Assembly (NCBI GenBank): GCA_004297335.1
Contig: SCUD01000010.1
Location: 1-64,000 of the forward strand
Length of the DNA: 64,000 bases
Origin: Gammaproteobacteria bacterium
GTDB taxonomy: Bacteria; Pseudomonadota; Gammaproteobacteria; Steroidobacterales; Steroidobacteraceae
Direction: 5' to 3'
This document shows, one piece after another, positions 43,289 through 64,000 of the stretch (position 1 is the stretch's first letter; every line of letters starts with the position of its first letter). The translations under genes and the position numbers were made by a program. Below the pieces are notes generated by a model. It did no database searches. It saw only the letters and a list, made by a program, of their open reading frames with translations, and was not told where the DNA came from.

Positions 43289-44587
43289 ATGCCCGCTTCG
43301 TCCAGCCCCCCGGTCCGACTCGGTCGTTGCCGCATCGGCGTCGTCGGCCTTGGCTACGTCGGGCTGCCGCTCGCCGTCGAGTTCGGCCGGCACTACGACA
43401 CCGTCGGCTTCGACGTGCGTGCCGGGCGCATCGCCGAGCTGGCGCGCGGCCGCGACCGTACGCTTGAGGTCACCACGCGCGAGCTGCGCGCGGCGAAGCG
43501 CCTGAGTTTCACGGCCGAGCTGCGCGGGCTGCGGCGCTGCCGGGTGTTCATCGTCACGGTGCCGACGCCGATCGACGACTACAAGCGCCCCGACCTCGGA
43601 CCGCTTGAGCGCGCGAGCGAATCGGTCGGCCGCGTGCTGCGCCGCGGTGCCGTCGTGATCTACGAATCCACGGTCTATCCCGGCTGCACCGAGGAAATCT
43701 GCGTGCCGATCCTGGAGCGTGTCTCCGGGCTGCGCTGCAACCAGGACTTCTTCGTCGGCTACAGTCCGGAACGCATCAATCCCGGCGACCGCGAGCACCG
43801 GCTGACGACGATCCGCAAGGTCACCGCCGGCTCGACGCCAGAGGCCGCGCGCTTCGTGGATGCGCTGTACGCCTCGATCGTCACCGCCGGCACGCACCCG
43901 GCCTCGAGCATCCGTGTGGCCGAGGCCGCCAAGGTCATCGAGAATACCCAGCGCGACGTCAACATCGCGTTGATCAACGAACTGGCGATGATCTTCAACC
44001 GGCTCGGCATCGACACCGGCGAAGTGCTGGCCGCGGCCGGCAGCAAGTGGAACTTCCTGCCGTTCCGGCCCGGGCTGGTCGGCGGGCACTGCATCGGCGT
44101 CGATCCCTACTACCTGACCCACAAGGCCCAGCAGATCGGTTATCACCCCGAGATGATCCTGGCCGGCCGGCGCATCAACGACAACATGGCGCTCTACGTC
44201 GCCGGCGAGATCGTCCGGCTGATGACCGGTAAGCGCATCCACGTGAACGGCGCGCGCGTGCTGGTGATGGGCCTCACCTTCAAGGAGGACTGCCCGGACC
44301 TGCGCAATTCCAAGGTCGCTGACGTGATCCACGAACTCGAGGGCTACGGCGCCCGGGTGGATGTCTGGGACCCGTGGGTCAATCCGCGCGAGGCCCGGGC
44401 CGAGTACGGCGTGCGCATCATCGGCAAGCCGGCGCGCGGTCATTACGATGCCATCGTCGTCGCCGTCGCGCACCGGCAGTTCCGCGCGCTCGACATCGCC
44501 GCCGTGCGCCGGCTGGCGCGCCGCAACCACGTGCTCTACGACATCAAGCACGTCTATCCGCAGGAGGCCACCGATGGCCGGCTCTGA
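43289..44587 (+). CDS. tviB: UDP-N-acetylhexosamine 6-dehydrogenase (TviB/WbpO type)
   Basis: The protein has 432 aa and belongs to the UDP-glucose/GDP-mannose dehydrogenase family. The NAD site is [18 protein letters not shown] and the catalytic cysteine is in [18 protein letters not shown]. The TviB/WbpO subgroup oxidises UDP-GlcNAc or UDP-GalNAc to the uronic acid; UDP-glucose as substrate cannot be excluded. It opens the polysaccharide region, and its end overlaps the next epimerase by 14 nt, so the two act in one pathway. Confidence 0.85.
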
Positions 44588-45641
44588 GCGCGGCATGCGC
44601 CCGATCCTCGTCACCGGCGCGGCCGGCTTCATCGGCTACCACACCGCGCGCGCGCTGCTCGAGCGCGGTGATGCGGTGATCGGCCTGGATAACCTCAACG
44701 ACTACTACGACCCGCGGCTCAAGCAGGCCCGCCTGGAACGGCTGCTCGGGTTCCCGGGTTTCCGCTTCGAGCGGCTGGATCTCGTCGACCGCGCCGGCAT
44801 GGAGGCGCTGTTCGCGCGCGAGCGCCCGCGGCGCGTCGTGCACCTCGCGGCGCAGGCAGGCGTGCGTTACTCGATCCAGAATCCGCATGCCTACGTGGAC
44901 AGCAACGTCACCGGCACGCTGCACGTGCTGGAGGGCTGCCGCCACCACGGGGTCGAGCACCTCGTCTTCGCCTCGACCAGCTCCGTCTACGGGGCGAACA
45001 CGCGGATGCCGTTCTCGGTGCACCAGAACGTGGACCACCCGCTGTCCTTCTACGCGGCGACCAAGAAGGCCAACGAGCTGATGGCGCACACCTACGCGTC
45101 GCTCTACGGGCTGCCGGTGACGGGATTGCGCTTCTTCACCGTCTACGGCCCCTGGGGCCGGCCGGACATGGCGCTGTTCCTGTTCACCCGCAACATCCTC
45201 GCCGGACAGCCGATCGACGTGTTCAACTATGGCCATCACCGCCGCGATTTCACCTATGTGGGCGACATCGTCGGCGGCGTCATCGCTGCACTCGATCACG
45301 TCGCGGCGCCGAATCCGGACTGGAGCGGCGATGCGCCGGACCCGGCAACCAGCCGCGCGCCCTACCGGCTCTACAACATCGGCAACAACCGTCCGGTCGA
45401 GCTGATGCACTACATCGCCGTGCTCGAGGATTGCCTCGGCCGCAAGGCGGAGAAGAACCTGCTGCCGCTGCAGACCGGGGACGTGCCGGACACCTGGGCC
45501 GATGCCGAGGACCTCGTCCGCGATGTCGGCTACCGGCCGGCGACGCCGGTCGAGGAGGGCGTGCGCCGCTTCGTCGACTGGTACCTCGAGTACTACCGGG
45601 ACGAGGCGCCGCCGGAGCCGCGGGTGACGAACCTGGGGTAG
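44574..45641 (+). CDS. NAD-dependent epimerase, UDP-glucuronate 4-epimerase type
   Basis: The protein has 355 aa with the extended SDR fold: [26 protein letters not shown] and [13 protein letters not shown] (Tyr-x3-Lys). The blocks [33 protein letters not shown] and [15 protein letters not shown] are typical of CapI-like UDP-glucuronate 4-epimerases, which make UDP-galacturonate. Together with the dehydrogenase it supplies a galacto-configured uronic acid. If the dehydrogenase acts on UDP-HexNAc, the natural substrate here may be N-acetylated. Confidence 0.87.
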
Positions 45642-46308: not shown

Positions 46309-46331
46309 ACGCATAAGCGTACAGGTGCCCA

Positions 46332-47008: not shown

Positions 47009-47021
47009 TTGAGGCGGACCG

Positions 47022-47042: not shown

Positions 47043-47328
47043 GGAACAGGTCAGCATTTCCAGGCTGAAAGACCAGTTAAGCGCCTATCTTCGCAAGGTC
47101 CGGGCGGGCGAAACTGTGCTTGTCCTGGACAGGGGTAAGCCAGTGGCCAGGCTGGAGCGTGTGGCGCCTCCGCTGGACGACGATGCCCGGTATCAGCGGC
47201 TGGTCGCTGCCGGGCTGATCCGTCCGCCCCTGCGGGCGCTCCGTGGCGAGCAGCTACGGCCGGTTGATCTCGGGCCAGATGCTGGCGTGTTGCAGGCGCT
47301 TCTCGACGATCGCCGCGAGGGGCGATGA
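47041..47328 (+). CDS. Phd/YefM-type antitoxin
   Basis: The protein has 95 aa. The N-terminus (VSISRLKDQLSAYLRKVRAGETVLVLDRGKPVARLE, broken here by variable residues) is the classical prevent-host-death fold, which dimerises and binds palindromic operators. The C-terminal part (about 55-95) should neutralise the toxin. Its stop overlaps the PIN toxin start by 4 nt. A perfect palindrome covers its promoter and start. Confidence 0.88.
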   Translation: MEQVSISRLKDQLSAYLRKVRAGETVLVLDRGKPVARLERVAPPLDDDARYQRLVAAGLIRPPLRALRGEQLRPVDLGPDAGVLQALLDDRREGR

Positions 47329-49431: not shown

Positions 49432-49655
49432 CCAGAGGTCCGGGTTTCGCTGCGGTTCTCCTCGTCCTCGCGCTGGCATCCCCGGCAGTCTCCGCCACCG
49501 ATCCCTGGGCCCCACCGGGCGATGCGCGTCTGCGGCATGACCTGCAGAGCGCCAGCAATGATCAAGACCTGCCCACACACTTGGAGGCTGCGCTGGCGCG
49601 CGTGCCGAGGCTGCTGCGGGCGCGCCAGCACCGCCCATGCCCGACTGACTCGTGA
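49428..49655 (+). pseudogene. Truncated wzi remnant
   Basis: A 75-codon frame encodes a signal peptide (GFAAVLLVLALASPAVSA) followed by DPWAPPGDARLRHDLQ, which matches DPWAAPGDARLRHDLE of the intact Wzi gene at 53177-54655. It then jumps to HLEAALARVPRL, which aligns with HIDAALARVRAA about 45 residues further on in Wzi, and ends. So an internal stretch and about 400 C-terminal residues are lost. Synonymous positions differ strongly from the intact copy, so this is not a recent duplication but an older, diverged wzi. It is coupled to pgi by GTGA and ends 2 nt before the rmlA ATG. Confidence 0.75.
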
Positions 49656-49657
49656 CA

Positions 49658-50554
49658 ATGAAACGGACCACGGACCGCAAGGGCATCATCCTTGCCGGAG
49701 GCGCGGGGACGCGCCTGCATCCGGTCACGCTTGCGCTGAGCAAGCAAATGGTCCCCGTGTACGACAAGCCGATGATCTATTACCCGCTGTCGACACTGAT
49801 GTTGTCGGGGATCCGTGAGTACCTCGTTATTACGACTCCGCGCGATCAGGCGGCGTTCCGTGAACTGCTGGGCGACGGAAAGAAATGGGGGTTGTCCATC
49901 GATTACGCGGTCCAGCCGGTTCCGGGGGGAATTGCCCAGGCGTTCCTTATCGGAGCTGATTTCGTTAATCGGAGTACTGTTTCATTGATACTCGGTGACA
50001 ACATCTTCCATGGTCACCAACTGTCTGAGACGCTTCAGGAATGCTCGAGGCGCCGGAGCGGTGCGACGATCTTCGGCTACTATGTGCATGATCCTGAGCG
50101 ATACGGTGTTGCGAAGTTCGACAGGGCGGGCCGTGTCATCGACCTTGTCGAGAAGCCCAAGATCGCCCCATCCAACTACGCGGTAACGGGCCTCTATTTC
50201 TACGACCCGGAGGTCGTTGATATCGCAAGGGGGCTATGCCCGTCTGGTCGTGGCGAACTTGAAATCACGGACGTCAACCGGGAGTACTTGCGGCTGGGGC
50301 GGCTGAAGCTTCAGAAGCTGGGGCGCGGCACCGCGTGGCTCGATACGGGGACGCACAGCTCGTTGCTCGACGCCTGCAACTTCGTCCGCATCATCGAGGA
50401 ACGTCAGGGCCTCAAGATTGCCTGCGTCGAGGAGGTGGCGTACCGCATGGGATTCATCACTGGCCGCCAGCTCGAGCGACTGGCGCAGCCTCTCCTCAAG
50501 AGTGGCTACGGCGAGTATCTCTTGCGTGTGCAGCAGGACGGTGACCTGCCGTGA
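49658..50554 (+). CDS. rmlA: Glucose-1-phosphate thymidylyltransferase
   Basis: The protein has 298 aa. It makes dTDP-glucose, the first step of dTDP-L-rhamnose synthesis. Motifs: [20 protein letters not shown], the metal-site [28 protein letters not shown] and [15 protein letters not shown] chose the ATG at 49658; a GTG at 49652 is in frame. No ribosome-binding site stands out. This gene marks a change to lower GC and more A/T-ending codons. It is coupled to rmlC by a 4-nt overlap. Confidence 0.96.
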
Positions 50555-51099
50555 ATTTCTTGCGCTTGGCGATTCCTGATGTGATTCTCGTAGAGCCGCA
50601 GGTCTTCGGCGACGACCGTGGCTATTTCATGGAGACCTGGCAGGCCGCAAAGTTCGCTGCTGCCGGGATCGACGCCAGCTTCGTGCAGGACAATCACAGT
50701 CGATCCTGTCGTGGAACATTGCGTGGATTGCATTACCAGCTGGTCCGGCCACAGGGCAAGCTGGTGCGGGTGATTGCGGGCGAGGTCTTCGATGTGGCGG
50801 TGGACCTGCGCCGTGGATCTCCTACCTTTGGTCACTGGGTGGGCGAAACGCTGTCGGTAGCGAACAAGCGGCAGGTTTGGCTGCCGCCCGGATTCGCTCA
50901 CGGCTTCTACGTTATCAGCGAATTTGCGGAATTCACCTACAAGTGCACGGATTACTACCATCCGCAGTCTGAGCGCAGCCTGCTGTGGAGCGACCCGGCT
51001 CTCGCGATCTCGTGGCCGGTTCCATCAGGCAGCGAGCCGATCCTTTCTGCCAAGGATCGCGCGGGGGTGCCACTGCAGTCGGCGGAGTGTTACGAATGA
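50551..51099 (+). CDS. rmlC: dTDP-4-dehydrorhamnose 3,5-epimerase
   Basis: The protein has 182 aa, a cupin epimerase. Motifs: [30 protein letters not shown] (with the catalytic His) and [25 protein letters not shown], split by variable positions. The GTG start overlaps the rmlA stop and its stop overlaps the rmlD ATG. It epimerises C3 and C5 of the 4-keto-6-deoxy sugar. Confidence 0.96.
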
Positions 51100-51965
51100 A
51101 GTCGCTCGTTCTTGGGGCGACCGGACAAGTTGGATTCGAATTGTGTCGAATGCAGCCGGTACGGACCGAACTGGTTGCTCTTAGTCGGGATCAGCTGGAC
51201 ATCTGTGATGGCATTGCCGTTGCCGCGGCACTTCGCAGATTCAAGCCGACAGTGGTGATTAACGCGGCGGCCTACACGCAGGTAGATAGGGCTGAGTCGG
51301 AACCGGAGCGCGCGTTCGACGTGAATGGAATGGCACCGGGGCACGTAGCCAGCGCCACGCGGGCCATCGGCGCTCGCCTCATTCACCTGTCCACGGACTT
51401 CATCTTCGACGGTGGTCAGCCACGCCCATGGGCACCAGGCGACCCGGGCAGGCCTCTGAACGCCTACGGGCGCAGCAAGCTGGCAGGGGAGGGGGCGGTC
51501 CAGCGCGAGTCGCACGGCGAGGCAGTGATTGTGCGAACTGCCTGGCTGTATTCAACGCACGGAACCAATTTTGTGAAGACCATGTTGCGACTGATGGGCG
51601 CGCGCGATGTCTTGGACGTGGTCGTCGATCAGGTGGGGTCGCCAACCTGGGCGCGGAGTCTGGCGCGGGCGTTGTGGATGTTCGCGATTCGTCCCGACTT
51701 GCGCGGGACGTATCACTGGACGGACGCTGGGGTCGCGAGCTGGTACGATTTTGCCGTGGCAATCCAGGAGGAAGCACTGTCGCGGAACTTGCTCACGCGC
51801 CAAATAGCAATTCGCGCCATTCGGTCGGCGGAGTATCCGACCGCAGCGCAGCGCCCTCCCTTCAGCGTGCTCGACACACGGTCGACAGCCCAGGATCTGG
51901 GCTTGCAGCCTGAACACTGGCGGCGGAACCTAAGGTTGATGTTGGATGAAGTCGCAGCGACGTAG
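51096..51965 (+). CDS. rmlD: dTDP-4-dehydrorhamnose reductase
   Basis: The protein has 289 aa, an SDR enzyme that reduces the 4-keto group to give dTDP-L-rhamnose. The NADPH site is VLGATGQVGFELC, and the catalytic STDFIFDG and AYGRSKLAGE (Tyr-x3-Lys) are present. ATGA overlap with rmlC; the 3' end overlaps rmlB by 20 nt, so the genes are tightly packed. Confidence 0.95.
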   Translation: MKSLVLGATGQVGFELCRMQPVRTELVALSRDQLDICDGIAVAAALRRFKPTVVINAAAYTQVDRAESEPERAFDVNGMAPGHVASATRAIGARLIHLSTDFIFDGGQPRPWAPGDPGRPLNAYGRSKLAGEGAVQRESHGEAVIVRTAWLYSTHGTNFVKTMLRLMGARDVLDVVVDQVGSPTWARSLARALWMFAIRPDLRGTYHWTDAGVASWYDFAVAIQEEALSRNLLTRQIAIRAIRSAEYPTAAQRPPFSVLDTRSTAQDLGLQPEHWRRNLRLMLDEVAAT

Positions 51966-53061
51966 GCTACTTGTTACGGGTGGTGCAGGCTTCATCGGCG
52001 CCAACTTCGTTCACTACTGGCGGCACCATCATCCGACGGACGAGCTGGTGGTGCTCGATGCGCTGACCTATGCCGGAAATCGCATGAACCTAGCTGATCT
52101 GGAAAGTGCACAGGGCCTCGAATTCATTCACGGCGACATCGTTGATCAGCCGCTGGCCGAGCGGCTGATCCGCGAACGGGAGATCGACACTGTTGCTCAT
52201 TTCGCTGCTGAATCACACGTCGATCGTTCGATCGTCGGACCAGATCAGTTCATCACAACGAATGTGCTGGGAACGCACTCACTACTGAAGGCGTGCCGCA
52301 AAGTATGGATCGAAGAAAAGAAGCAGCATGGTCATCGTTTCCATCACATTTCGACCGACGAGGTATATGGATCCCTGGAGCCGGATCAGCCGGCGTTTAC
52401 GGAAGACAGTCCGTATGCGCCGAACTCGCCGTATTCTGCCAGTAAAGCCGCCTCGGATCATCTTGTTCGGGCGTACTTTCATACCTACGGCCTCCAGGTC
52501 ACGACGACCAATTGCTCCAACAACTACGGGCCATATCATTTCCCGGAGAAGCTCATACCGCTGATGATCGTCAATGCCCTGCACGGGAAGCCGCTGCCCG
52601 TATATGGCGACGGGCGCAATGTCCGCGATTGGCTCTACGTTACGGACCATTGCGCGGCGATCGACCTCGTGCTGTCAGCCGGCACACCAGGGACGACCTA
52701 TAACGTAGGCGGTGACTGCGAACGAGACAATCTGACGCTGATTGGCCTGCTATGCGATCTGCTGGACGACGCTTTCGTACGGCGGAGGGACCTGTGTCGA
52801 CGATTCCGGGACGCACCAGCTGCCTGCGGTGGCAAGTCCGCTGATCTCATTGCGTTTGTGAAGGACCGGCCAGGACACGATCGCCGATACGCAATAGATT
52901 CGTCACTCATCCGCGATGAGCTGGGCTTCGTTCCAAAGGTCGACCTGGAACGAGGGCTCCGCTCGACAATCGAGTGGTATCTTGCCAATGAAGCATGGTG
53001 GCGGGCAGTCATGAGCGGTGCGTACCGGGACTGGGTCGCACGCAACTACGCCGCCCGATGA
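51946..53061 (+). CDS. rmlB: dTDP-glucose 4,6-dehydratase
   Basis: The protein has 371 aa, an extended SDR. Motifs: LVTGGAGFIGANFVHY, HFAAESHVDRSI, HISTDEVYGSL, SPYSASKAASDHL (Tyr-x3-Lys) and TNCSNNYGPYHFPEK. It catalyses the second rhamnose step, so placing it last gives the order A-C-D-B, unlike the frequent B-D-A-C. The start lies inside rmlD. Confidence 0.96.
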   Translation: MKSQRRRLLVTGGAGFIGANFVHYWRHHHPTDELVVLDALTYAGNRMNLADLESAQGLEFIHGDIVDQPLAERLIREREIDTVAHFAAESHVDRSIVGPDQFITTNVLGTHSLLKACRKVWIEEKKQHGHRFHHISTDEVYGSLEPDQPAFTEDSPYAPNSPYSASKAASDHLVRAYFHTYGLQVTTTNCSNNYGPYHFPEKLIPLMIVNALHGKPLPVYGDGRNVRDWLYVTDHCAAIDLVLSAGTPGTTYNVGGDCERDNLTLIGLLCDLLDDAFVRRRDLCRRFRDAPAACGGKSADLIAFVKDRPGHDRRYAIDSSLIRDELGFVPKVDLERGLRSTIEWYLANEAWWRAVMSGAYRDWVARNYAAR

Positions 53062-53116: not shown

Positions 53117-53145
53117 TTGCCGCCGATATTCTTTCAAACTACAAT
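53117..53145 (+). promoter_or_regulatory. Promoter of the wzi-led export/assembly operon
   Basis: TTGCCG (53117-53122) and TACAAT (53140-53145) are separated by 17 nt. Transcription would start near 53152, 25 nt before the chosen wzi GTG. It is the only strong promoter seen after rmlB; all later genes are tightly spaced on the same strand. Confidence 0.65.
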
Positions 53146-53176
53146 CCGAACCCCGCGCCCGGCCCGAGGCTTGAAC

Positions 53177-54655
53177 GTGATCCGTGATCGGCGCAGACCG
53201 TTCGAGACCCTGACCGTGCTGGTCCTGCTTCTTTTCCCGCTGTCCGCGGCCCTGGCCGACCCTTGGGCGGCGCCGGGCGATGCCCGGCTGCGCCACGATC
53301 TGGAGCTGCTCTCTGACACGGGACTCGTCAAGGCGCCGCTGACGAGCTGGCCGGTGTCCTGGGCGGAGGTGGGCCGCGATCTGTCGGCGGTCACGGCCGA
53401 TATCGCCCACCCGGCCCACATCGATGCCGCGCTGGCCCGGGTACGAGCGGCCGTCTCCGATGCGGGACGGGCCGGCGAGTGGGTGCGCGACGTGGGCGTG
53501 GCCGGGTCGGTCGAGCCGATGACTCTTCGTCGCTTCGCCGACGTACCGCGTGGGACTGGGGAACTCGTAGCGTCGGCGCAATACACCGGGGCGCGTTTTG
53601 CGCTGCGGCTGCAGGCATCCGCGGTCGGCGACCCCTCCGACGACCAGGACGTGCGGTTCGACGGAAGCTACGCCAGCGTAGTTCTCGGCAACTGGATGCT
53701 GTCGACTGGCTTCGTCGACCGCTGGTGGGGGCCTGGCTGGGAGGGCAGCCTCATCTACGGCACCAACCAGCGCCCGATCCCATCGATCACAGTCGAACGC
53801 AACTATTCGGACCCGTTCGACGCGAGATGGCTCGCCTGGGTCGGCCAGTGGAGGCTGGCCTTCACGCTCGGGCAGCTGGAAGGGGATCGCGGCGATGCGC
53901 CGCACGCGCAGTTTCTTGGCATGCGCGTTACTTGGAAGCCCCACGCGCGGGTCGAGGTCGGGATTTCACGTAGCGCCCAATGGTGCGGTCGCGGCCGGCC
54001 CTGCAGCTTCGGCACTCTCTGGGACCTGCTGGCGGGCAACGACAACGATCAGCCACTGGCGGCACAGCCTGGCAACCAGCTCGCGGGCTTCGACATTCGC
54101 TGGTCGGTTCCTTGGATTCCGCTGGCGGTGTATGGGCAGGCCATTGGCGAGGACGAAGCGGGCGGCCTCCCGAGCAAGTACTTGGGCCTCGTGGGCGCCG
54201 AGAGCTGGGGTGGTTGGGGGGCGAGATCCTGGCGCGTGCACGCCGAGTATGCCGACACGGCTTGCATCTTCAATGGCAGCCAACCGGAGTTCGGCTGCGC
54301 CTATCGCAACATTATCTACTCCGACGGCTATCAGTTCCGGGAGCAGTCCGTCGGGCATGCGATCGACGGCGACAGTAGGCAGCTCGCTTTCGGCGTAATG
54401 CTGGTTGAGGCAGACGGCAGCAGTTGGCAGCTCGCCGCGCAGAATGCGAAGATCAACCGTGCCGGAGCGAACCCCGTGCAGTCCGTTTCGGTTGTTCCGG
54501 CTCGGGTCCGGTCGGCGGACCTGTACCATCGGCGAGGGCTGTTCGGTGGCGACGTCAAGTTCGGCGTCGGGTATGAGGAATTCGACTCAACCGAGGCCGG
54601 CGACAGCGATAATTGTTTTCGGGGATTCGCGCAATGGACAAGAGCGGTCCAATGA
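53177..54655 (+). CDS. wzi: Wzi-family outer-membrane capsule assembly protein
   Basis: The protein has 492 aa. A signal peptide (TLTVLVLLLFPLSAALA) is followed by a helical segment and then a beta-barrel: many alternating strands such as FALRLQASAVGD, DGSYASVVLGNWML and GFVDRWWGPGWEGSLIYG. Wzi proteins are outer-membrane lectins that hold capsular polysaccharide at the surface. The GTG start is favoured by GAGG 8 nt upstream and by the promoter, which ends at 53145; a TTG at 53117 lies in the -35 box. Its stop overlaps the start of the SLBB exporter gene. A decayed second copy lies at 49428. Confidence 0.88.
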   Translation: MIRDRRRPFETLTVLVLLLFPLSAALADPWAAPGDARLRHDLELLSDTGLVKAPLTSWPVSWAEVGRDLSAVTADIAHPAHIDAALARVRAAVSDAGRAGEWVRDVGVAGSVEPMTLRRFADVPRGTGELVASAQYTGARFALRLQASAVGDPSDDQDVRFDGSYASVVLGNWMLSTGFVDRWWGPGWEGSLIYGTNQRPIPSITVERNYSDPFDARWLAWVGQWRLAFTLGQLEGDRGDAPHAQFLGMRVTWKPHARVEVGISRSAQWCGRGRPCSFGTLWDLLAGNDNDQPLAAQPGNQLAGFDIRWSVPWIPLAVYGQAIGEDEAGGLPSKYLGLVGAESWGGWGARSWRVHAEYADTACIFNGSQPEFGCAYRNIIYSDGYQFREQSVGHAIDGDSRQLAFGVMLVEADGSSWQLAAQNAKINRAGANPVQSVSVVPARVRSADLYHRRGLFGGDVKFGVGYEEFDSTEAGDSDNCFRGFAQWTRAVQ

Positions 54656-57423
54656 TCTCCCAGGGGGCAGGAAGTGTGCGGCTGAGCCTGGCCGATGCTG
54701 CGAGAGTCCTTGGCGTGCCGTCCCTCGTGGCGGCGCTTTTGTTGGCGGCCGCTACGACTGTCGCAGCACAGACGCCGGAACAGATCGAGATCTTCCGGAA
54801 TTTGCCGCCCGAGCAGCAGCGACAGGTTCTAAGCCAGATTGGCCAGACGAGCGTCGCCGAGACGGGGACCAGCAAGCCCGTCGAACTACCCGCGATCAGT
54901 GAGTCACGCCTCACCGTCGACGAGTACACAGCCTTGTTGGCCGGCAAGGAGCAGCGGTTTCGTGCCGGTGACACCCTGATCCTCAGCATCGAGGCGCGGC
55001 AGCCAGAACAGGGCGCCGCATCGTCGGACCCCGGTGCCGTACGCGCAGCGGCCGACATGCGCGCCCGCGTGCTGGCGGGGAACCCCTATCGTCTGGATAG
55101 TACCGGCGTACTGCAGATTCCGGGTGCGCCTCCGATTCCGTTGGCCGGCCTGACGGCGGCGCAGTCCGGTGCGCGACTCAACACGGAGCCGGCGCTTAGC
55201 GCATTCAAGCTGGAGGTCGCGGCCCTGCCGGTCGAGCCGGAACTCAAGCCCTTTGGCTACGACGTCTTCCGAAACGTGCCGACGACGTTTGCGCCGGCGA
55301 CGGACATCCCGGTGCCAGCGGATTATGTTCTCGGTCCGGGCGACACGATGGAGGTGCTGCTGATAGGAGAGAAGGGTGGGCGCTACACGCTCACTGTCGG
55401 ACGCGACGGCGTAGTGGACTTTCCGGAGCTCGGCCCGATCGCGGTGGCCGGCATGCGCTTTCCCGCGGCTAAGGATCTGCTCGAAGGAAGGGTGACCGAG
55501 CAGATGATCGGCCTGCGCGCGAGCGTGTCGATGGGACCGCTGCGCTCGATCCAGGTGTTCGTGCTGGGCGAGGCGGAACGGCCGGGGTCTTACACCGTCA
55601 GCGGCCTGTCGACGGTGACTAATGCGCTGCTTGCGAGCGGTGGGGTCAAGCCCATCGGGTCGCTCCGCGACATCCAGGTCAAGCGCGACGGGCAGGTTGT
55701 TGCGCACATCGATCTCTATGACCTGCTGCTCAACGGCGACACTGGTGATGACGTACGACTGCTGCCCGGGGACGTCATCTTCATCCCGCCGATTGGAACA
55801 ACTGTCGCCATCGCTGGGGAGGTCCAGCGCCCGGCAATCTATGAAGTCCTGGAGCGCACGCCCGTCTCGCAGCTCCTCTACCTGACGGGCGGCCTGACGC
55901 CGCTGGCCGATCCGCGTACCGCACGGCTTAACCGAGTGGATGATCGGCGCAACCGCACGATCCTCGACATCGACCTGACGACCGCGCAGGGCCGAGGCAC
56001 GCTGCTACAGAGCGGCGACATCGTCCGCATCCAGCCGATCCGAAACAGCCTCGAGGGCGCCGTGCAGCTCGACGGCCATGTATACCGTACGCGGGCCGAG
56101 CAATTCCGGCCAGGCATGCGCCTGACCGCGCTGCTGCAGAGCCTGGATGAGGTCCGCCCGCTCGCCGACCTGCACTATGTGCTGGTGCGCCGCGAGACGG
56201 GCCCAGACCGGCGCGTCTCGGTGGTCTCCGCCGATCTGGCGGCAGCCTTTGCCAATCCGGTGTCGGAGGCCAACATCGCCTTGCAGGCGCGGGACCGCGT
56301 GCACGTGTTTGATTTAGCGACAAGCCGAGACGAGGTCGTGAGGCCGATCATCGACGACCTGCGCCGCCAGAGCCTGCGCGGCGAGCCGGCTCAGGTCGTG
56401 GGTGTGGGCGGCCACGTAAAGGTGCCCGGCCGTTATCCGCTCGAGGCCGGTATGACTGTAGGTGATCTGATCCGCGCCGGTGGCGGCTTGGACCAGGCGT
56501 CCTACGGGGCTGAAGCGGAGCTGACGCGCTATGAGGTAGTGGATGGGGAACGTCGACAGACAGACCTGATTGAGGTCGACCTCGACCGATTGCTTGCGGG
56601 CGACGCAACCGCGGATCTTGCGCTGCGGCCATTCGATTACCTCGTCATCAAGGAAATGCCACTCTGGGGTGAGCAGGAGAGTGTGACACTGGCGGGTGAG
56701 GTGCGCTTCCCAGGTACCTATCCGATAAGGCGCGGCGAGACACTGCGTTCAGTGGTCGATCGCGCCGGCGGGCTTACTGACCTCGCGTTCGTCGAGGGCA
56801 GCGCATTCACGCGCCGGGAGCTGAAAGCGCGTGAGCAGCGGCAGATCAGCGCACTCGTAGAGCGCCTGCAGCGTGAATTGGCGTCGCTGTCGTTGCAACA
56901 GGCGCAGTCCACAGAAGTTGCAACCACCTCTCAGGCGCTGGCGGTTGGGCAGGCGCTGCTCGCTGAGCTCAAACAAACCGAGGCGGCTGGCCGTCTGGTC
57001 ATTGATCTTGACGCCGCCATGAGGTCTGCGCCGGGGGCGCCCGGAGAAATCGTAATGAAGGACGGCGACTTCCTGGCGGTGCCGCGACGGACGCAGGAAG
57101 TGACCGTGATCGGCGAAGTCCAGAATCCGACCTCACACCTGCACCAGGTCGGATTGTTGAGGGATGACTACATTGCGAGCAGTGGCGGCACGACACAACG
57201 GGCTGACGAACGGCGGACGTACATTGTGCGCGCGAATGGCAGAGTCCTGGCAGGATCTGAGTCGCGCTGGTTTGGACGCGGCGGATCGAAGGAGATCCGG
57301 CCGGGTGACACGATCGTCGTGCCGGTCGACGTCGAGCAGGTTCGGCCGCTGACGCTTTGGGGCAGCGTGACCCAAATTCTGTACAACATTGCCGTGGCCG
57401 TCGCGGCAGTGAACTCCTTCTAG
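54652..57423 (+). CDS. Multi-SLBB polysaccharide export protein (Wza-related)
   Basis: The protein has 923 aa, far longer than E. coli Wza (379). A signal peptide (LVAALLLAAATTVAAQ) leads to a poly_export domain (about 205-290, ADYVLGPGDTMEVLLIGEKGG) and about five or six SLBB units, seen from repeated patterns such as VLGEAERPGSYTV, IAGEVQRPAIYEV, VGGHVKVPGRYPL, LAGEVRFPGTYPI and VIGEVQNPTSHLH. A helical insertion lies near 720-800 and a hydrophobic end (ILYNIAVAVAAVNSF) may be a membrane helix. It probably forms the periplasm-spanning or outer-membrane export channel. There is no lipobox. The start chosen overlaps the wzi stop (ATGA); a TTG at 54613 and ATG at 54634 are alternatives. Confidence 0.87.
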   Translation: MISQGAGSVRLSLADAARVLGVPSLVAALLLAAATTVAAQTPEQIEIFRNLPPEQQRQVLSQIGQTSVAETGTSKPVELPAISESRLTVDEYTALLAGKEQRFRAGDTLILSIEARQPEQGAASSDPGAVRAAADMRARVLAGNPYRLDSTGVLQIPGAPPIPLAGLTAAQSGARLNTEPALSAFKLEVAALPVEPELKPFGYDVFRNVPTTFAPATDIPVPADYVLGPGDTMEVLLIGEKGGRYTLTVGRDGVVDFPELGPIAVAGMRFPAAKDLLEGRVTEQMIGLRASVSMGPLRSIQVFVLGEAERPGSYTVSGLSTVTNALLASGGVKPIGSLRDIQVKRDGQVVAHIDLYDLLLNGDTGDDVRLLPGDVIFIPPIGTTVAIAGEVQRPAIYEVLERTPVSQLLYLTGGLTPLADPRTARLNRVDDRRNRTILDIDLTTAQGRGTLLQSGDIVRIQPIRNSLEGAVQLDGHVYRTRAEQFRPGMRLTALLQSLDEVRPLADLHYVLVRRETGPDRRVSVVSADLAAAFANPVSEANIALQARDRVHVFDLATSRDEVVRPIIDDLRRQSLRGEPAQVVGVGGHVKVPGRYPLEAGMTVGDLIRAGGGLDQASYGAEAELTRYEVVDGERRQTDLIEVDLDRLLAGDATADLALRPFDYLVIKEMPLWGEQESVTLAGEVRFPGTYPIRRGETLRSVVDRAGGLTDLAFVEGSAFTRRELKAREQRQISALVERLQRELASLSLQQAQSTEVATTSQALAVGQALLAELKQTEAAGRLVIDLDAAMRSAPGAPGEIVMKDGDFLAVPRRTQEVTVIGEVQNPTSHLHQVGLLRDDYIASSGGTTQRADERRTYIVRANGRVLAGSESRWFGRGGSKEIRPGDTIVVPVDVEQVRPLTLWGSVTQILYNIAVAVAAVNSF

Positions 57424-57433
57424 GAGTGACTCG

Positions 57434-58312
57434 ATGACCCTTCTGGTCGACAGTGATGGGCATCGTAACGAAGAGCTCCTCGAGTTTATTGTTGGACGTT
57501 GGAAAATGCTGCTGGCTGGTGCGTTGACGGGTACCATCCTCGGGTTAGCCGTGTGGGCGCTATCGACGCCTATCTATCGAGCCGAGATCATCCTTGCCCC
57601 AGCAATGGATGACACAGGCGGCATGCTTGGTTCGCTCATGGCTGACTATGGAGCACTTGCCAACCTGGCTGGAATCAACGTTTCCGCACCGCAGGACGGA
57701 CGCCAGGAATCGCTCGCGGTGCTTCGTTCGCGCGCACTGGCCGAAGCTTTCATCAAAGAGCAGGAGCTGATGAAGGTGTTCTTTGCCGAGGACTGGGACA
57801 AGAGTTCTGGCCGATGGATGGATCCTGATCCGGACGAGCACCCGTCGATGTGGGATGCGTTCGAGCTCTTTGATGAGGACATCCGTTCTGTCAGCGAGGA
57901 TCGACGTACCGGGATGATTACGTTGTCGATGGAGTGGTCTGATCCAGAATTGGCTGCAGGATGGGCTAATTCGTTTGTTGCGCGAGCCAACGAGCAGATT
58001 CGCCAGCGCACGATTCAGGAGGCGAGTCGGACAATTGACTATCTGCGAAAGGAGTTGGCCAAGTCGGATCTTGTCGAGGTGCGACAGGCCATATCAAAGA
58101 TCATCGAGGGTCAGGTCAAGACCGTCGCCATCGCAAGAGTTCGCGAGCAATACGCATTTCGAGTTGTTGATCAGGCCGTCCCTGCCGACCGCGATCGTCC
58201 CGTCCGACCGAGCCTTGTCTTGACGGCTGCAGTCGGATTGCTTGTCGGGCTGGCTGTGACGGCAATTGCCGTTATGTTGCGGCATCGAGCAGGCGTTCGT
58301 CGCGCTGTCTGA
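57434..58312 (+). CDS. wzz: Wzz-type polysaccharide chain-length determinant
   Basis: The protein has 292 aa with two transmembrane helices (about 26-44, LLAGALTGTILGLAVWALS; and about 262-284, VLTAAVGLLVGLAVTAIAV) flanking a periplasmic helical domain. This is the PCP layout. There is no C-terminal tyrosine kinase, so it resembles class 1 Wzz rather than Wzc. It would set polymer length with the Wzy-like protein downstream. A good Shine-Dalgarno (TAGGAG) precedes the ATG. Confidence 0.88.
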   Translation: MTLLVDSDGHRNEELLEFIVGRWKMLLAGALTGTILGLAVWALSTPIYRAEIILAPAMDDTGGMLGSLMADYGALANLAGINVSAPQDGRQESLAVLRSRALAEAFIKEQELMKVFFAEDWDKSSGRWMDPDPDEHPSMWDAFELFDEDIRSVSEDRRTGMITLSMEWSDPELAAGWANSFVARANEQIRQRTIQEASRTIDYLRKELAKSDLVEVRQAISKIIEGQVKTVAIARVREQYAFRVVDQAVPADRDRPVRPSLVLTAAVGLLVGLAVTAIAVMLRHRAGVRRAV

Positions 58313-58399
58313 TCGCGGCGACTCACAGGTATTGGTGTCAAGCAGTTGGACGTCGGCTCGTCACGGCAAGCAGACACGGCAGGTCCCGGCGGAAAGCAA

Positions 58400-59686
58400 A
58401 TGCGATGGGGCGTGGTCGGTTCGGGGGCCACTCGCGTCGGGGGTGCAGTAATTGCCTTTGCCGTGCAATTAGGCATTGCGCGCGCACTTGGGCCGTCCCA
58501 CTTTGGAGTGTACTCATACCTGGTAGCCTGGATTGTTACCTTGTCGGCGATTAGCACTCTAGGCATGGATTCGGCAGCAGTTCGACTGGTGGCGCGGTAC
58601 TCGGTCCAGCCCGATGGCAATAGCGCCAGGGCCTTTGTGTGGTATGCGCTGCGGTCCGTCTTCATAGCGGGACTGGTTGCCGGGGCACTGCTCTACTTCG
58701 TCGTGCCGGTCGCTTCGGGCTTCATAGCGCTTCCAAGTGATCGTACATTGCTCCTGATTGCGGCGTTCGCTGTTCCGGGCGTTGCGCTGTTGAACGTCTT
58801 GTGTAGCGCCATACAGGGTGCCGGCTGGCCGATCATAGGCCAGACTCCATTGCTAGTCATTCGGCCGGTCTTCCTGGGAACAACATTCTTTGTTCTTGCA
58901 GCTGCGATGTGGAGGGTATCGGGGCCGCTATTGGCAATTACAGCGGAGGGGTTGTCCATTATCTTGGGCGTGGCCTTTGCAAGCATGCTTGCGCTGTGGT
59001 TGCTGCCTCGTGCCAATCAGCAGTCCAGCGCGGCGGACGATCCTCGGCGATTGTGGCAAATGATTGCCGGGTTGTTTGCTGTTGGCGTTCTCCAGATCGT
59101 ACTGACTCAGTCGGCGGTTCTGATACTTGGTTGGAATGCGGCACCGGACGAGGCCGGCCGTTATGCTGCCGCGGCTCGCATTACGACGGTCATCTCCATC
59201 GCCCTAGGCTCGATCAATGCACTCGCGGCTCCACGCATAGCGCAGCTGCATGCAATTGATGCCCAGGGCGATCTGGCGAGACTTGCGCGGTGGGTCGCGC
59301 AGGCATCATTTGGTATTGGGTTGCCCATAGCGGTACTACTTCTGCTGTTCGGACGGAGAATCCTTGATTTGCTGGGGCATGGATTCGGAGAGTCGTATTG
59401 GGTGCTCTGCATTCTGACGCTCGGGCAGATTGTCAACGCCGGTGCTGGCTGCGTACTGCAGATCATGATGATGACCGGGCACCAGAGCGTGGCCGTCCGC
59501 ACTCTCGGAGTAGTAGCAGTGGCAAATGTGCTTGCCCTGGTTCTCTTTGTGCCGGCCAGCGGCGCAATGGCGGCTGCTTGGGTCAGCGCTTGCACTGTAA
59601 TTACGTGGAACGTGGTTCTCGTACGCTGGATTCGCCGAAATCTCGGCCTCGATCCGTCAATACTGCCGATGAGGCCTGTCCGGTGA
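58400..59686 (+). CDS. wzx: Wzx-type lipid-linked oligosaccharide flippase
   Basis: The protein has 428 aa and about 12 hydrophobic helices, of the MATE/MOP polysaccharide transporter type (RVGGAVIAFAVQLGIARALGP is the N-terminal hallmark, split here by variable residues). It flips undecaprenyl-linked repeat units to the periplasm. The ATG follows GGAAAG; a TTG at 58346 is a less likely start. Its stop overlaps the GTG of the sulfotransferase. GC is visibly lower than in the housekeeping genes. Confidence 0.87.
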   Translation: MRWGVVGSGATRVGGAVIAFAVQLGIARALGPSHFGVYSYLVAWIVTLSAISTLGMDSAAVRLVARYSVQPDGNSARAFVWYALRSVFIAGLVAGALLYFVVPVASGFIALPSDRTLLLIAAFAVPGVALLNVLCSAIQGAGWPIIGQTPLLVIRPVFLGTTFFVLAAAMWRVSGPLLAITAEGLSIILGVAFASMLALWLLPRANQQSSAADDPRRLWQMIAGLFAVGVLQIVLTQSAVLILGWNAAPDEAGRYAAAARITTVISIALGSINALAAPRIAQLHAIDAQGDLARLARWVAQASFGIGLPIAVLLLLFGRRILDLLGHGFGESYWVLCILTLGQIVNAGAGCVLQIMMMTGHQSVAVRTLGVVAVANVLALVLFVPASGAMAAAWVSACTVITWNVVLVRWIRRNLGLDPSILPMRPVR

Positions 59687-60639
59687 GTGGAGAGGCGAGC
59701 AAGGGGGAGGGGGAGCGGAGGAGCGTTGGCTTCTTTGTCGTCGGGGCCCAAAAGTGTGGCACGACGTCACTGCACATGTACCTGTCGCAGCACCCAAACC
59801 TCTTCCTGCCGGCTCAAAAGGAAACGGAGTTCTTCTATCGCGATGATCGCTTTCAGCGAGGCGGAGACTGGTACCTGGAGACATACTTTTCGTCGGCAAA
59901 GGAGAGTCAAATTCTCGGGGAGGTCTGCCCACAGTACATGTTCTCTGAGGCTGTGCCGGAGCGAATCCATCGAATATTCCCATGCACGAAGATTGTTTTC
60001 ATATTGCGCGACCCGGTAAGCCGAGCGTACTCGCACTACCGGATGAGCGTGCGCCGTGGACGGGAAACGCGTTCGTTTGAGCGGGTACTGGACGACGAAT
60101 TGAAGGTGGGAGCAGTTTGTGACAGGAGCAGGGAGCCGGACTACGGCTACGTGCATTTTGGGGAGTACGGCCGGATAGTTGGCGCGTACATGAAGGTGTT
60201 TCCCAGTCATCAGATGAGAGTAGTGTTCACGGAGGATTTCGTTCTGGATCAGAGAGCGGTCACTCTGGACATGATCGCATGGCTGGGCGCCGATCCTGGG
60301 TTACTTCCCGATCGGGCTTTGGAGAAGACGTACAACGTGGGCGGCGAACGGCGATTCCGAGCGGTCGACAGGCTCATTCGCGGAGGAAGGTTCGTGAAGC
60401 GCACCGCGCGTGCGGTTCTTGGGGAATCGAAATACAACAGGTTATGGCTGTGGTGGGAACTGGAGGCAACGGTGGCGCGGTCGCGCGGTGCAGGAATTGA
60501 CCCGGCCCAGTCGGACCGGCTGCAGCGACACTACTCCCGGGATGTGGCGTGTCTGGAGCAGCTCCTGGGTCGACGCACGCCGTGGGCACGATTTCACGGG
60601 GGCGAATTATCCGGACAGTCTGAGGGTCGATCCCGGTGA
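59683..60639 (+). CDS. PAPS-dependent sulfotransferase
   Basis: The protein has 318 aa. The 5'-phosphosulfate-binding loop is VVGAQKCGTTSLHMYLS near residue 20, and the 3'-phosphate motif is FILRDPVSRAYSHYRM near 105, both hallmark sequences. An acidic/histidine segment YVHFGEYGRIVGAYMKVFP resembles heparan-sulfate-type sulfotransferases. It probably adds sulfate to a polysaccharide repeat unit. It overlaps wzx upstream and the polymerase gene downstream by 4 nt each (GTGA), so it is an integral part of the operon. PAPS synthesis genes are not in the window. Confidence 0.88.
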   Translation: MSGEASKGEGERRSVGFFVVGAQKCGTTSLHMYLSQHPNLFLPAQKETEFFYRDDRFQRGGDWYLETYFSSAKESQILGEVCPQYMFSEAVPERIHRIFPCTKIVFILRDPVSRAYSHYRMSVRRGRETRSFERVLDDELKVGAVCDRSREPDYGYVHFGEYGRIVGAYMKVFPSHQMRVVFTEDFVLDQRAVTLDMIAWLGADPGLLPDRALEKTYNVGGERRFRAVDRLIRGGRFVKRTARAVLGESKYNRLWLWWELEATVARSRGAGIDPAQSDRLQRHYSRDVACLEQLLGRRTPWARFHGGELSGQSEGRSR

Positions 60640-61997
60640 GTTGGGTCCTGGCGCACCTGACCGTGATCGGCGTCGGCGCAGCGTTTCTCGTGTCATTGAT
60701 TCTCATCGTGGCGTGTACCGCTTCGATGACATTCGTGTCGCCAGTTCATTTGTATTTCTACTTCTACTCCTTCTATGTCCTGATCTGGGTCGTCTTGTTG
60801 CATGCCAGTGGTGAACCTACCTACGTGGGCTCGGCCAGCGTCGACACAACAAGTCCAGTCACGGCATGGTTGGTGGGCATCGGCCTGCTATGTTTCAGCC
60901 TGGGTGCGGTCGCAGTTGCAGTTGGTTCCGGATTTAGGCCGACTGAGGCATTGGCATCATACCGCGCGAGGGCCCTCGTCTCGGACGTCAATGATGATGC
61001 ATCGGTAGTCGCGCTGATGATCATCTTTGCGCTTGGGGCGGGTCTCGCGGTCTCATTTTTCGTGATGAAGGGCATTCCACTTGCCGCGTACCTGGAGGCA
61101 GGTTCAGATAGCCACTTCTTCCGCGCGATGAGTGAAGCCCGCGCAGAGTCGCTGGTCGGGAGCGGCTATCTGATGCAGGGCATCACCACGATCTTGCCCA
61201 TCGGAATTCTACTGCTGAGCGCACACGCCGCAACGGTGCAGCGATGGCCGCTGACAGCTCTTGCATTGCTGTGCGTGGTAGGAGTTATAGCGGCGATGTT
61301 TTCTTTGACGTCACGCGGTCACTTTGTAATGTTCTTGGTTCTGCTTTTCGTCGTTAACCAGACGGTTCGAGGTGGCGTGAAGTGGAAACGGATGGTGACC
61401 TGGATTATTGTGTCGTTCTTGCTGTTCTCCATTTCGTCACTCGTGAAGTTCGGCCTGATTGAGCAGTGGACGGGTCTCGGTCCCGCAATGGCCGCGTCAG
61501 TAACAATCCTGGCGGATCGGCTGGCGTTGGGCGTGCGGCAGTTGTACGCGCTGGTCAGCATCTTTCCGCGCGAGCACGACTTCTTGCTGGGTCGAGGCTT
61601 GTTCTGGGATGTAAGGGCGCTTTTGCCGGGCGCCGACATTGGGTTCAATCGCTGGGCATTCGACTTGCTGTATCCTGCAAGTGCTGTTCCTGCGAACATT
61701 ACGCCGACAAGTGTCGGTGAGTGGTACGCAAACTTCGGCGTGGCGGGAGTTGTGATGGGTAGCGCCATGTTGGGGGCGATTCTTCAGTTCACGCATCAAT
61801 GTCTCCTGAAGCCAGGGCTGTGGCTCTCGGCGAGGGTCTCGCTCGTGTTCCTGGCAGCATACGAAGCAAAGAGCGCCATCAACGGCCAGGGCGCGGTAGC
61901 CGAGCCATTAATATCGGGCATCATGACGATTCTGCTGTTTTTTCTCATACGCTGGTTCCTGCGTGGTGGGGTCAAAGGCGCCAGATCGTGGCCATAA
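60636..61997 (+). CDS. Wzy-like oligosaccharide repeat-unit polymerase
   Basis: The protein has 453 aa and is very hydrophobic, with about 11-12 transmembrane helices and a larger periplasmic loop around 285-350 (QLYALVSIFPREHDFLLGRG to PTSVGEWYANFG). This is the plan of Wzy/OafB-type polymerases, which have low sequence conservation. Position between the flippase/sulfotransferase and glycosyltransferases supports the role. O-antigen ligase is the alternative. Confidence 0.75.
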   Translation: MSWVLAHLTVIGVGAAFLVSLILIVACTASMTFVSPVHLYFYFYSFYVLIWVVLLHASGEPTYVGSASVDTTSPVTAWLVGIGLLCFSLGAVAVAVGSGFRPTEALASYRARALVSDVNDDASVVALMIIFALGAGLAVSFFVMKGIPLAAYLEAGSDSHFFRAMSEARAESLVGSGYLMQGITTILPIGILLLSAHAATVQRWPLTALALLCVVGVIAAMFSLTSRGHFVMFLVLLFVVNQTVRGGVKWKRMVTWIIVSFLLFSISSLVKFGLIEQWTGLGPAMAASVTILADRLALGVRQLYALVSIFPREHDFLLGRGLFWDVRALLPGADIGFNRWAFDLLYPASAVPANITPTSVGEWYANFGVAGVVMGSAMLGAILQFTHQCLLKPGLWLSARVSLVFLAAYEAKSAINGQGAVAEPLISGIMTILLFFLIRWFLRGGVKGARSWP

Positions 61998-62135
61998 TTC
62001 GAAATCGGAATGCCACTGTGCGGAGCAGCGTCTTTTTTTCGTGCGGACACGAGCCAGGCAGGCATGCTGTCAGGCAATGCATGTGGTTGTCGATCGGGGT
62101 CCCGCAGTTGCGGGCCAAGCGCGGTGTTTGACCCG

Positions 62136-63041
62136 ATGACAGTACTTGTTGTGGCCGTCAATTACCGGACGCCCCACCATGCGGCCCGACTGGTTGGGTC
62201 GCTGTTAAGGGCCGCGGACGGTGACTCGCTGCACGTTGCGCTCGTGGACAACACGGAAGACGATGTAGGGTGCATCCGCGAGGAGGATGTGCCGATCGGA
62301 AACCCAGATCTCACCTTCGTACGGGCACCATTGAACCTCGGCTATTTTGGTGGGGCGAATCTTGGATTGCAGCGCTATCTTCTGACGCATGCGATGCCGG
62401 ACTGGGTTGTCGTCAGCAATGTAGATATATCTATCAATGATCCCGTGGATTTCGTGCGGCAGCTGAGCGTGTTTAGCGACCCAGGGGTAGGAGTGGTTGC
62501 TCCGAGCATAGTGCGCGAAGACACTGGTCGAGATCTCAACCCGTTCATGCGCAGCCGGCCGTCCGCATGGAGGATGCGCGCTTACAGTCTTCTCTTCAGG
62601 CAATATATCGGCCTTGCGGTCTATGATGTACTTGCGACTATGAAGCGACGAGCAATGCGGCGCAAGGAGTTGGTCCGCGCAGACAACCTGCCGTGCGGGA
62701 GTCGGCCCGGCGAGCAAATATATGCTCCGCATGGCAGCCTGATCTGTCTGTCGCGACAGTTTTTCGAGCGAGGAGGGTCGCTCAAGTATCAGCCGTTCCT
62801 GTTTGGTGAGGAAGTCTTTGTTGCCGAGCAGGCTAGGCAGTTGTCGCTTCGCGTATTGTATGCGCCCATGATGGTCGTGCAGCACTCATCCAGCGCGAGT
62901 ATCAGCCTGATAAGGAGTCGCGTGATTCATCGTTATGTGAGGGAATCGTCACGATATCTGGCCGAGCATTACTTTGGTAAGCGGCTGACGGATCGGCCGG
63001 TAACCACTGTTGGCAGCGATCGCGACGGCGCAGGCAACTGA
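62136..63041 (+). CDS. Family 2 glycosyltransferase (rhamnosyltransferase-like)
   Basis: The protein has 301 aa with the GT-A fold: TVLVVAVNYRTPHHAARLV, the NLGYFGGANLGLQRY block and the metal-site WVVVSNVDISIND. GGANLGL with a neighbouring aspartate recalls WbbL-type rhamnosyltransferases, which would fit the rml genes, but the acceptor is unknown. I used the ATG at 62136; the upstream frame is rich in Cys and unlike the family. The 138-nt gap before it holds only a small CCCGCA/TGCGGG hairpin (62101-62114). Confidence 0.82.
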   Translation: MTVLVVAVNYRTPHHAARLVGSLLRAADGDSLHVALVDNTEDDVGCIREEDVPIGNPDLTFVRAPLNLGYFGGANLGLQRYLLTHAMPDWVVVSNVDISINDPVDFVRQLSVFSDPGVGVVAPSIVREDTGRDLNPFMRSRPSAWRMRAYSLLFRQYIGLAVYDVLATMKRRAMRRKELVRADNLPCGSRPGEQIYAPHGSLICLSRQFFERGGSLKYQPFLFGEEVFVAEQARQLSLRVLYAPMMVVQHSSSASISLIRSRVIHRYVRESSRYLAEHYFGKRLTDRPVTTVGSDRDGAGN

Positions 63042-64000
63042 ATGGAGCGATCCGACGAGCCACTGTGTGTCAGCCGAGATGCCGCAGCGGGTGGAAGTGA
63101 GCCATTTGTCTCCGTGATCGCGCCGTGTCGGAGAGAGGTGCGTTTTGTTGAGGCGTTTGTCCGTTCGCTGCAGCAGCAGAGCTATCGATGTGACCGGCTT
63201 GAATTCCTCGTGGCCGATGGCATGAGCGATGACGGGACCCGTGAGGTTCTCGATCGGATGGCGCTCTCGGATGCACGACTGGTGGTCATCGACAATCCAC
63301 GTCGCTACGTGTCGGCGGGCCTCAACCTCGCAATACAGCGGGCTAAGGGTGACATAGTTGTTCGAATGGATGTGCATACGGTGTATGCGCAAGACTATGT
63401 CTCGCGCTGTGTGGAAGCACTGCAGTCGACAGGCATGGGCTGTGTTGGAGGACCATGGCGGGCGGTGGGGCACGGCTACTGGGAGCGCGCGATCGCGGCC
63501 GGGTTTAGATCGCCGTTTGGGTCGGGTGGCGCCCGCTCTCACCTCGAAGGCTATGAAGGTGAGGTTGACAGTGTCTATCTCGGCTGCTGGCATCGGCAGA
63601 GGTTGATCGAGTACGGTATGTTCGACGAGGATCTGGTGCGTAATCAGGACGATGAACTCTGCCTGCGGATCAGACGCCAGGGTGGGCACATCTGGCAGTC
63701 GCCGAAGATTCGTTCTGAGTACAGGCCACGGGGTTCGATGCTCGCACTCGGGCGGCAGTATTACCAGTACGGTTACTGGAAGGTCCGAGTGATCAAGAAG
63801 CATGGCCAGGCGGCGGCGGTCCGTCATTTCGTGCCTGCCGCCGCAATTGCGATTGGCGCAATTCTCGCTGGCTTGTCGGTCGCCGTTCCCGTGGCATCGA
63901 CGGTCTTGATGTGGCTTGCCGCGGCATATGCCGCCTGCGTCGCCGGGTCTTCGGCGGTGAGCTGTGCGGCCGATGGAGATTGGGCACTGCTTCCTGCGCT
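63042..64000 (+). CDS. ExoA-like family 2 glycosyltransferase (partial, runs off the window)
   Basis: The open frame covers at least 319 codons with no stop before the window end. GT2 features: FVSVIAPCRRE at the start, LVADGMSDDGTREVLD, the metal motif VVRMDVHTVYAQDY and the acceptor motif NQDDELCLRIRRQGG. Hydrophobic helices near the end (AIAIGAILAGLSVAVPVAST) match the ExoA subgroup, membrane-anchored enzymes of succinoglycan-like synthesis. The ATG overlaps the preceding TGA by one base. The polysaccharide operon therefore continues beyond the window. Confidence 0.85.
   Translation, partial: MERSDEPLCVSRDAAAGGSEPFVSVIAPCRREVRFVEAFVRSLQQQSYRCDRLEFLVADGMSDDGTREVLDRMALSDARLVVIDNPRRYVSAGLNLAIQRAKGDIVVRMDVHTVYAQDYVSRCVEALQSTGMGCVGGPWRAVGHGYWERAIAAGFRSPFGSGGARSHLEGYEGEVDSVYLGCWHRQRLIEYGMFDEDLVRNQDDELCLRIRRQGGHIWQSPKIRSEYRPRGSMLALGRQYYQYGYWKVRVIKKHGQAAAVRHFVPAAAIAIGAILAGLSVAVPVASTVLMWLAAAYAACVAGSSAVSCAADGDWALLPA

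Follow-up and report, generated by a model that had tools for sequence, protein, structure and literature searches.

Gene clusters for sulfated capsules are already known in a few bacteria. The sulfated capsules of two gammaproteobacteria, Vibrio sp. KMM 8419 (PMC11641403) and Cobetia marina KMM 1449 (PMC11766843), were solved by nuclear magnetic resonance, and both capsule clusters contain a sulfotransferase (ST) gene, rml genes and cysDNC. The joint presence of ST genes and genes for synthesis of the sulfate donor 3'-phosphoadenosine 5'-phosphosulfate (PAPS) has been called a hallmark of sulfated-polysaccharide clusters (PMC11641403). Sulfate was measured in synechan, a Wzx/Wzy polymer of Synechocystis PCC 6803 whose xss cluster contains two ST genes (PMC8205485). 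In Actinoplanes missouriensis the predicted Wzx/Wzy cluster wps-1, which also encodes a methyltransferase, has the heparan sulfate (HS)-type ST WpsH named right after the flippase WpsG, and wpsB and wpsH are required for normal sporangia (PMC13390465). The sulfated exopolysaccharide GY785 of Alteromonas infernus is named in a review (PMC4189415). The present work concerns an ST gene that lies between a wzx-type flippase gene and a gene for a Wzy-like polymerase in a gammaproteobacterium of the Steroidobacteraceae (GCA_004297335.1, contig SCUD01000010.1). The window, as the stretch under study is called here, comprises positions 1 to 64000 of this contig, which is 80167 bases long. A search of the genome for 16S gave no match.

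A first-pass annotation made from the letters of the window had proposed that the locus directs synthesis of a sulfated surface polysaccharide. As a prediction this interpretation is well supported, and a surface coat made of a sulfated sugar polymer is probable for this bacterium. We consider it likely that the ST is a soluble, PAPS-dependent enzyme of the HS 3-O-sulfotransferase (3-OST) or NDST type, which sulfates a sugar in the repeat unit of a Wzx/Wzy-type capsule or exopolysaccharide. The role in repeat-unit assembly is proposed because the ST gene overlaps both wzx and the Wzy-like gene inside a wzi-wza-wzz locus, because its PAPS motifs are conserved and HS 3-OST and NDST enzymes are its best named relatives in the PDB by profile and by fold, and because cysD and cysNC exceed their cut-offs on the same contig and wzx adjoins the matched ST in 18 of 80 loci from named genomes. 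Gene order, the overlaps, the enzyme family, the predicted fold and the presence of PAPS genes are direct results, whereas the activity of the ST, its substrate, the site of the sulfate and its addition ahead of flipping are inferred. In the proposed scheme CysD and CysNC, encoded downstream, would make PAPS, the ST would add sulfate to the lipid-linked repeat unit in the cytoplasm, most likely ahead of flipping by Wzx, and the Wzy-like protein would polymerise the sulfated units. The Wzz-, Wza- and Wzi-like proteins would serve in length setting, export and retention of the polymer.

Family, fold and predicted acceptor of the sulfotransferase

The ST matches PF13469 (2.3e-15) and PF00685 (4.7e-10). 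The ST has both PAPS motifs pointed out in the first-pass annotation, GAQKCGTTSLH and FILRDPVSRAYSHY; two alignments, one of 45 homologues and one of 9, show conservation at the core positions of these motifs. For the 5'- and 3'-phosphate-binding motifs in the 45 sequences, G21, T27, K46, R109 and P111 are invariant and K24, E47, R114 and S117 are conserved in at least 90 %. The K46-E47 pair is conserved in both alignments. In HS 3-OST/NDST-type enzymes the catalytic Glu follows a Lys; the Glu of the ST pair aligns with that of 3-OST5, which has no preceding Lys at this place.

In a phmmer search of the PDB the top matches were 3rnl of Alicyclobacillus acidocaldarius (2.1e-31), whose title names no substrate, and then HS 3-OST5 (4.9e-17). 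The profile built from the 45 sequences gave the same picture, with 3rnl at 3.5e-95, HS 3-OST and NDST enzymes at 1.7e-39 to 2.2e-36, cytosolic SULTs at 2.2e-9 or weaker and TPSTs at 2.3e-3 or weaker. The AlphaFold model of the ST (pLDDT 89.2, pTM 0.83) superposed on 3rnl with Z 27.5 (2.3 A over 231 residues), on 3-OSTs with Z 24.9-25.9 and on NDST with Z 23.7-25.5. The 3-OSTs, the NDST sulfotransferase domain and 3rnl thus resemble the ST in fold over most of the chain, in PAPS motifs and in the aligned Lys-Glu pair; the human HS enzymes are 22-25 % identical to it in structural alignment. The first-pass annotation was to count as refuted if structural modelling placed the enzyme in lipid or small-molecule sulfation; the modelling did not refute it and set the enzyme beside the HS enzymes and not the cytosolic small-molecule ones. 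On sequence and fold it is very improbable that the ST is a RaxST- or SULT-like enzyme acting on peptide tyrosine, lipids or small molecules: the PAPS fold is common to all these enzymes, and natural-product STs (Z 16.1-16.7), TPSTs (14.1-14.7) and SULTs (up to 13.1) are also aligned with the model, but the ST is nearer the HS enzymes in sequence and in fold, with far higher scores in both. A carbohydrate acceptor is the best guess.

PAPS is cytoplasmic, and Wzy polymerisation is periplasmic. No segment of the ST is strongly hydrophobic (maximum Kyte-Doolittle mean over 19 residues 0.87), and the enzyme is therefore expected to be cytoplasmic as well. These points stand against sulfation after polymerisation, or on a nucleotide sugar instead of the lipid-linked repeat unit, to which we give a very slim chance, even though HS enzymes themselves act on the polymer. 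Also in favour of this alternative is the proposal, made for Vibrio sp. KMM 8419, that residues are incorporated in already sulfated form (PMC11641403). Sulfation of the lipid-linked unit is retained in the scheme above.

PAPS supply and the remainder of the locus

By its own account the first-pass annotation would have been refuted by a genome without PAPS synthesis genes. Such genes were found on the ST contig itself, the start of cysD being about 13 kb downstream of the ST end (CysD 522 bits against an NCBIfam cut-off of 397, CysNC 947 against 715), and the contig region of the cluster thus holds both an ST and PAPS synthesis genes. An APS (adenosine 5'-phosphosulfate) kinase is present in 50 of the 59 genomes searched, own included. 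The neighbourhood of cysNC was read at 20 places, spread over 19 of these 50 genomes. In 5 of 19 relatives cysDNC adjoins at least one of ugd, manC and the permease gene, namely in genus-mates G001, G004 and G006 and in family members G021 and G022. The block ugd-permease-cysD-cysNC is kept in the three genus-mates, together with manC in two of them; the G006 contig ends within the permease gene of the block. In another genome, G028, wza is about 9 kb from cysNC.

Several points weigh against the proposed role of the ST. A shared fold cannot by itself identify the acceptor, and the Wzy-like protein, although it has 10 hydrophobic segments by a crude count, stays below the cut-offs of both PF01901 (19.9 bits, cut-off 24.2) and TIGR04370 (33.4, cut-off 40). 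The cysDNC genes encode the only strong APS kinase of the genome (the other PF01583 place has 24 bits over 51 positions). A second, dedicated PAPS gene copy was not found in the genome, in which the PF01507 places comprise one CysD and one CysH. This CysH, which we take to be of the PAPS reductase type from its motifs, would also be fed by cysDNC, so that assimilation would require these genes regardless, and their presence alone proves little about polymer sulfation. A search of 6 genus-mates at E 1e-10 gave no match to this ST; in G006 wzi-wza-wzz is followed by a gene for a MurJ-type flippase and then by one whose product matches Wzy_C below cut-off, and no ST gene separates the two. The genes cysDNC, manC and ugd share one contig of G021 with a wzx locus, and the genome has no match to PF13469 or PF00685, the two ST families searched. 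The G021 case and the genus-mates that lack this ST indicate that cysDNC is linked to such loci independently of the ST. G082 is a contrary case, with ST and cysDNC together in a wzi-wza-wzz locus.

The proximity of cysDNC was accordingly rejected as proof of polymer sulfation, since the block is kept in G001, G004 and G006, which lack this ST, and cysDNC occurs in such a locus of G021, where PF13469 and PF00685, the families searched, have no match. As an observation in its own right, cysDNC of G021 (contig C10; L051, L110, L111) lies within a complete polysaccharide locus.

Another glycan or a glycolipid, for instance O-antigen or a polymer made by a different locus, might also be the acceptor, in which case the ST would owe its place to the clustering of surface-glycan genes. 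The genome has 15 stretches matching PF13469, of which two belong to the window ST and the others lie mostly in long frames of about 380-770 aa, whose products may be TPR-sulfotransferases; the genus-mates and G028 likewise have many PF13469 sulfotransferases. On own-genome contigs C27 (1-19900, L143) and C78 (12000-31900, L144), ST-like genes were observed near a flippase gene and glycosyltransferase genes, the C78 match and one of the C27 matches being below the Pfam cut-off. These two loci speak for the alternative, which we nevertheless regard as unlikely, because the window ST overlaps both wzx and the Wzy-like gene and an ST next to wzx recurs elsewhere. Action on the repeat unit of its own locus remains the preferred reading.

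The genes of the locus run in the order rmlACDB - wzi - wza - wzz - wzx - ST - wzy - GT - GT, GT being glycosyltransferase (Table 1). The matches to PF01943, PF02563 and PF14052 are all over cut-off, and the flippase and export proteins of a Wzx/Wzy-dependent system are therefore recognised. The gene coordinates given in the first-pass annotation stand, as do the two 4-nt overlaps, except that its wzx start at 58400 is an alternative ATG inside an open reading frame (ORF) whose longest form begins at TTG 58346.

Table 1. Features of the polysaccharide locus and its surroundings (window coordinates)
Feature	Position	Strand	Basis
TviB-type UDP-N-acetylglucosamine C-6 dehydrogenase	43289..44587	+	NF011729, 611 bits, cut-off 592
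Sugar nucleotide epimerase/dehydratase family protein	44439..45641	+	top NCBIfam match galE, below cut-off
rmlA-rmlC-rmlD-rmlB, presumed dTDP-rhamnose genes	49652..53061	+	naming assumed from translations
Wzi capsule assembly protein	53117..54655	+	PF14052 8.3e-74
Wza-like outer membrane export protein, SLBB domains	54613..57423	+	PF02563 3.4e-16, PF10531 1.5e-42
Wzz-like chain length protein	57434..58312	+	PF02706 23.3 bits, below cut-off 25.5
wzx-type flippase	58346..59686	+	PF01943 8.3e-15
GTGA overlap, wzx stop / ST GTG start	59683..59686	+	sequence
ST, HS 3-OST/NDST type, 318 aa, GTG start	59683..60639	+	PF13469 and PF00685 over cut-off; PDB profile and fold
GTGA overlap, ST stop / wzy GTG start	60636..60639	+	sequence
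Wzy-like polymerase candidate	60636..61997	+	TIGR04370 and PF01901 below cut-off; hydrophobic segments
GT2-like glycosyltransferase	62010..63041	+	PF00535 22.2 bits, below cut-off 23.3
GT2 glycosyltransferase	63042..64000, extends to 64121 past the window	+	PF00535 75 bits
Methyltransferase, aminotransferase, sugar-phosphate transferase, CapD-like protein, ugd, permease, cysD, cysNC, manC	downstream of the window on the same contig, up to 78158		

The polymer had been predicted to contain rhamnose and a uronic acid besides sulfate. For these sugars the genes indicate genetic capacity only, since the window dehydrogenase is over the TviB cut-off and ugd lies outside the window; manC adds GDP-mannose. 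The sugar-phosphate transferase is a candidate for the initiating enzyme (C119:65988-66602; TIGR03025 212 bits, cut-off 295.6), its match spanning only the C-terminal half of the model. The permease is of the DASS type (PF03600 and PF00939 over cut-off) with TrkA_C domains. Small gene pairs, presumably toxin-antitoxin-like to judge from their translations, are interspersed among the polysaccharide genes at window positions 45643-47750 and at C119:70568-72034 and 78106-78794.

Recurrence of wzx next to a sulfotransferase gene

ST homologues at E 1e-15 were found in 48 of 369 genomes, own included, in a class-level search. An initial scan of named genomes that used only the ST gave no match; the scan on which the counts below are based gave 393 confirmed relatives, the best 80 of which were analysed as loci. 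Genes of the fetched loci were called by a home-made procedure of ORFs and hidden Markov models (the query ORF of L203 was miscalled), and contigs ending near the ST were kept in the denominators. In the 18 named loci mentioned above wzx is a direct same-strand neighbour of the matched ST; when intervening STs are allowed, wzx is next in line in 23 of the 80, and it lies within 6 kb in 37. Glycosyltransferase genes are within 6 kb of the ST in 50 of the 80 loci and cysD is in the fetched stretch in 6. At the class level, 7 of 37 places have a wzx-adjacent ST. In each of the 14 listed cases in which wzx precedes the matched ST, the start of the ST ORF, set at the first start codon, lies within a range from 14 nt of overlap to a gap of 2 nt.

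Complete triplets of wzx, one or more ST genes and a gene for a polytopic protein, which the first-pass annotation had recommended as a search target, are rarer than the pairs: they occur in 5/80 named loci and 1/37 class-level places, the single class-level triplet lying on a contig already counted among the five (L172 = L124). The third gene of L172 has a Wzy_C score of 30.0 bits against a cut-off of 31.7. At 1e-3 Pfam gave no match for the L170 'wzx' or for the L165 Wzy candidate.

The adjacency exceeds chance. Among all genes called in the 80 loci, 30 of 176 ST genes touch wzx; the corresponding count is 0 of 127 for glycosyltransferase genes and 24 of 494 for unlabelled ORFs, some of which are spurious. 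The query STs had been chosen as locus centres; when they are subtracted, the ST count becomes 12 of 97 (Fisher p 0.009 in comparison with unlabelled ORFs and 3e-5 in comparison with glycosyltransferases, the loci not being independent). The closest ST homologue, in Methylomicrobium sp. wino1, is located behind a gene for a Wzt-type ABC ATPase, which suggests that the ST is associated with export and not with Wzx alone. In the same organism one ORF (L162:12122-13492) matches both Sulfotransfer_4 (PF17784) and Inositol_P (PF00459) and possibly encodes a sulfotransferase fused to a PAP phosphatase-like domain. In the surroundings of Wza, an ST was found in one of 30 stretches (L270), and L115, fetched separately, also has STs near wza.

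A quick ST tree was made from the first 58 rows of at least 220 aa in BLAST order, out of 184 hits, minus duplicates L122 and L124; XssA, XssE and four STs of the own genome were added. On this tree the window ST belongs to a group of 14 rows (SH-aLRT 92, below the tool's mark of 95), in which 7 of the 13 others are wzx-adjacent. In a quick tree of 67 wzx rows, those labelled 'ST next door' cluster, with 12 changes compared with a shuffled mean of 22.6 (0/500 shuffles as low), a result inflated by related loci, all 13 rows without a nearby ST being from the family and order. The window wzx falls in a set of 6 rows from loci other than those nearest the window ST on the ST tree. Strict co-inheritance of wzx and ST is not supported.

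A broader proposal, that HS-type STs are recurrent Wzx partners across phyla and that sulfation licenses export, the flippase passing only sulfated repeat units, seems to us rather doubtful. If it were true, wzx-ST pairs would predict sulfated surface polysaccharides in uncultured bacteria far beyond cyanobacteria.

The locus in relation to described sulfated polymers

Charge, metal binding and recognition all change when surface polymers are sulfated, and there is a search for microbes as sources of heparin-like polymers. The wzx-ST-wzy unit provides a searchable signature, and the isolate Alteromonas lipolytica JW12 (L167), which has the order wza-wzz-wzx-ST, makes sulfation in a gammaproteobacterial Wzx/Wzy pathway directly testable.

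The first-pass annotation called sulfation rarely described for gammaproteobacterial Wzx/Wzy systems. This is a fair statement, although two sulfated capsules of gammaproteobacteria have been published with their gene clusters (PMC11641403, PMC11766843). The literature searched, to which most subscription journals did not belong, gave no gammaproteobacterial case of a sulfated Wzx/Wzy polymer together with its ST gene. The clusters of KMM 8419 and KMM 1449 differ from the window locus in that capsule export is assigned to ABC transporters (PMC11641403, PMC11766843), and KMM 8419 also has second copies of cys genes (PMC11641403). The xss cluster differs in that its ST genes are not adjacent to the flippase gene in the sequence record, and XssA and XssE do not group with the window ST on the quick tree, which has long branches. 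The wps-1 cluster belongs to an actinomycete, has a second ST and, by letter order, the kinase-like WpsI between ST and Wzy, and sulfation of its polymer is predicted (PMC13390465). Against this background the novelty is modest. It lies in the occurrence, in a gammaproteobacterium, of an HS-type ST gene with an overlap to wzx on one side and to a Wzy-like gene on the other, and in the counted tendency of HS-type ST genes to adjoin wzx.

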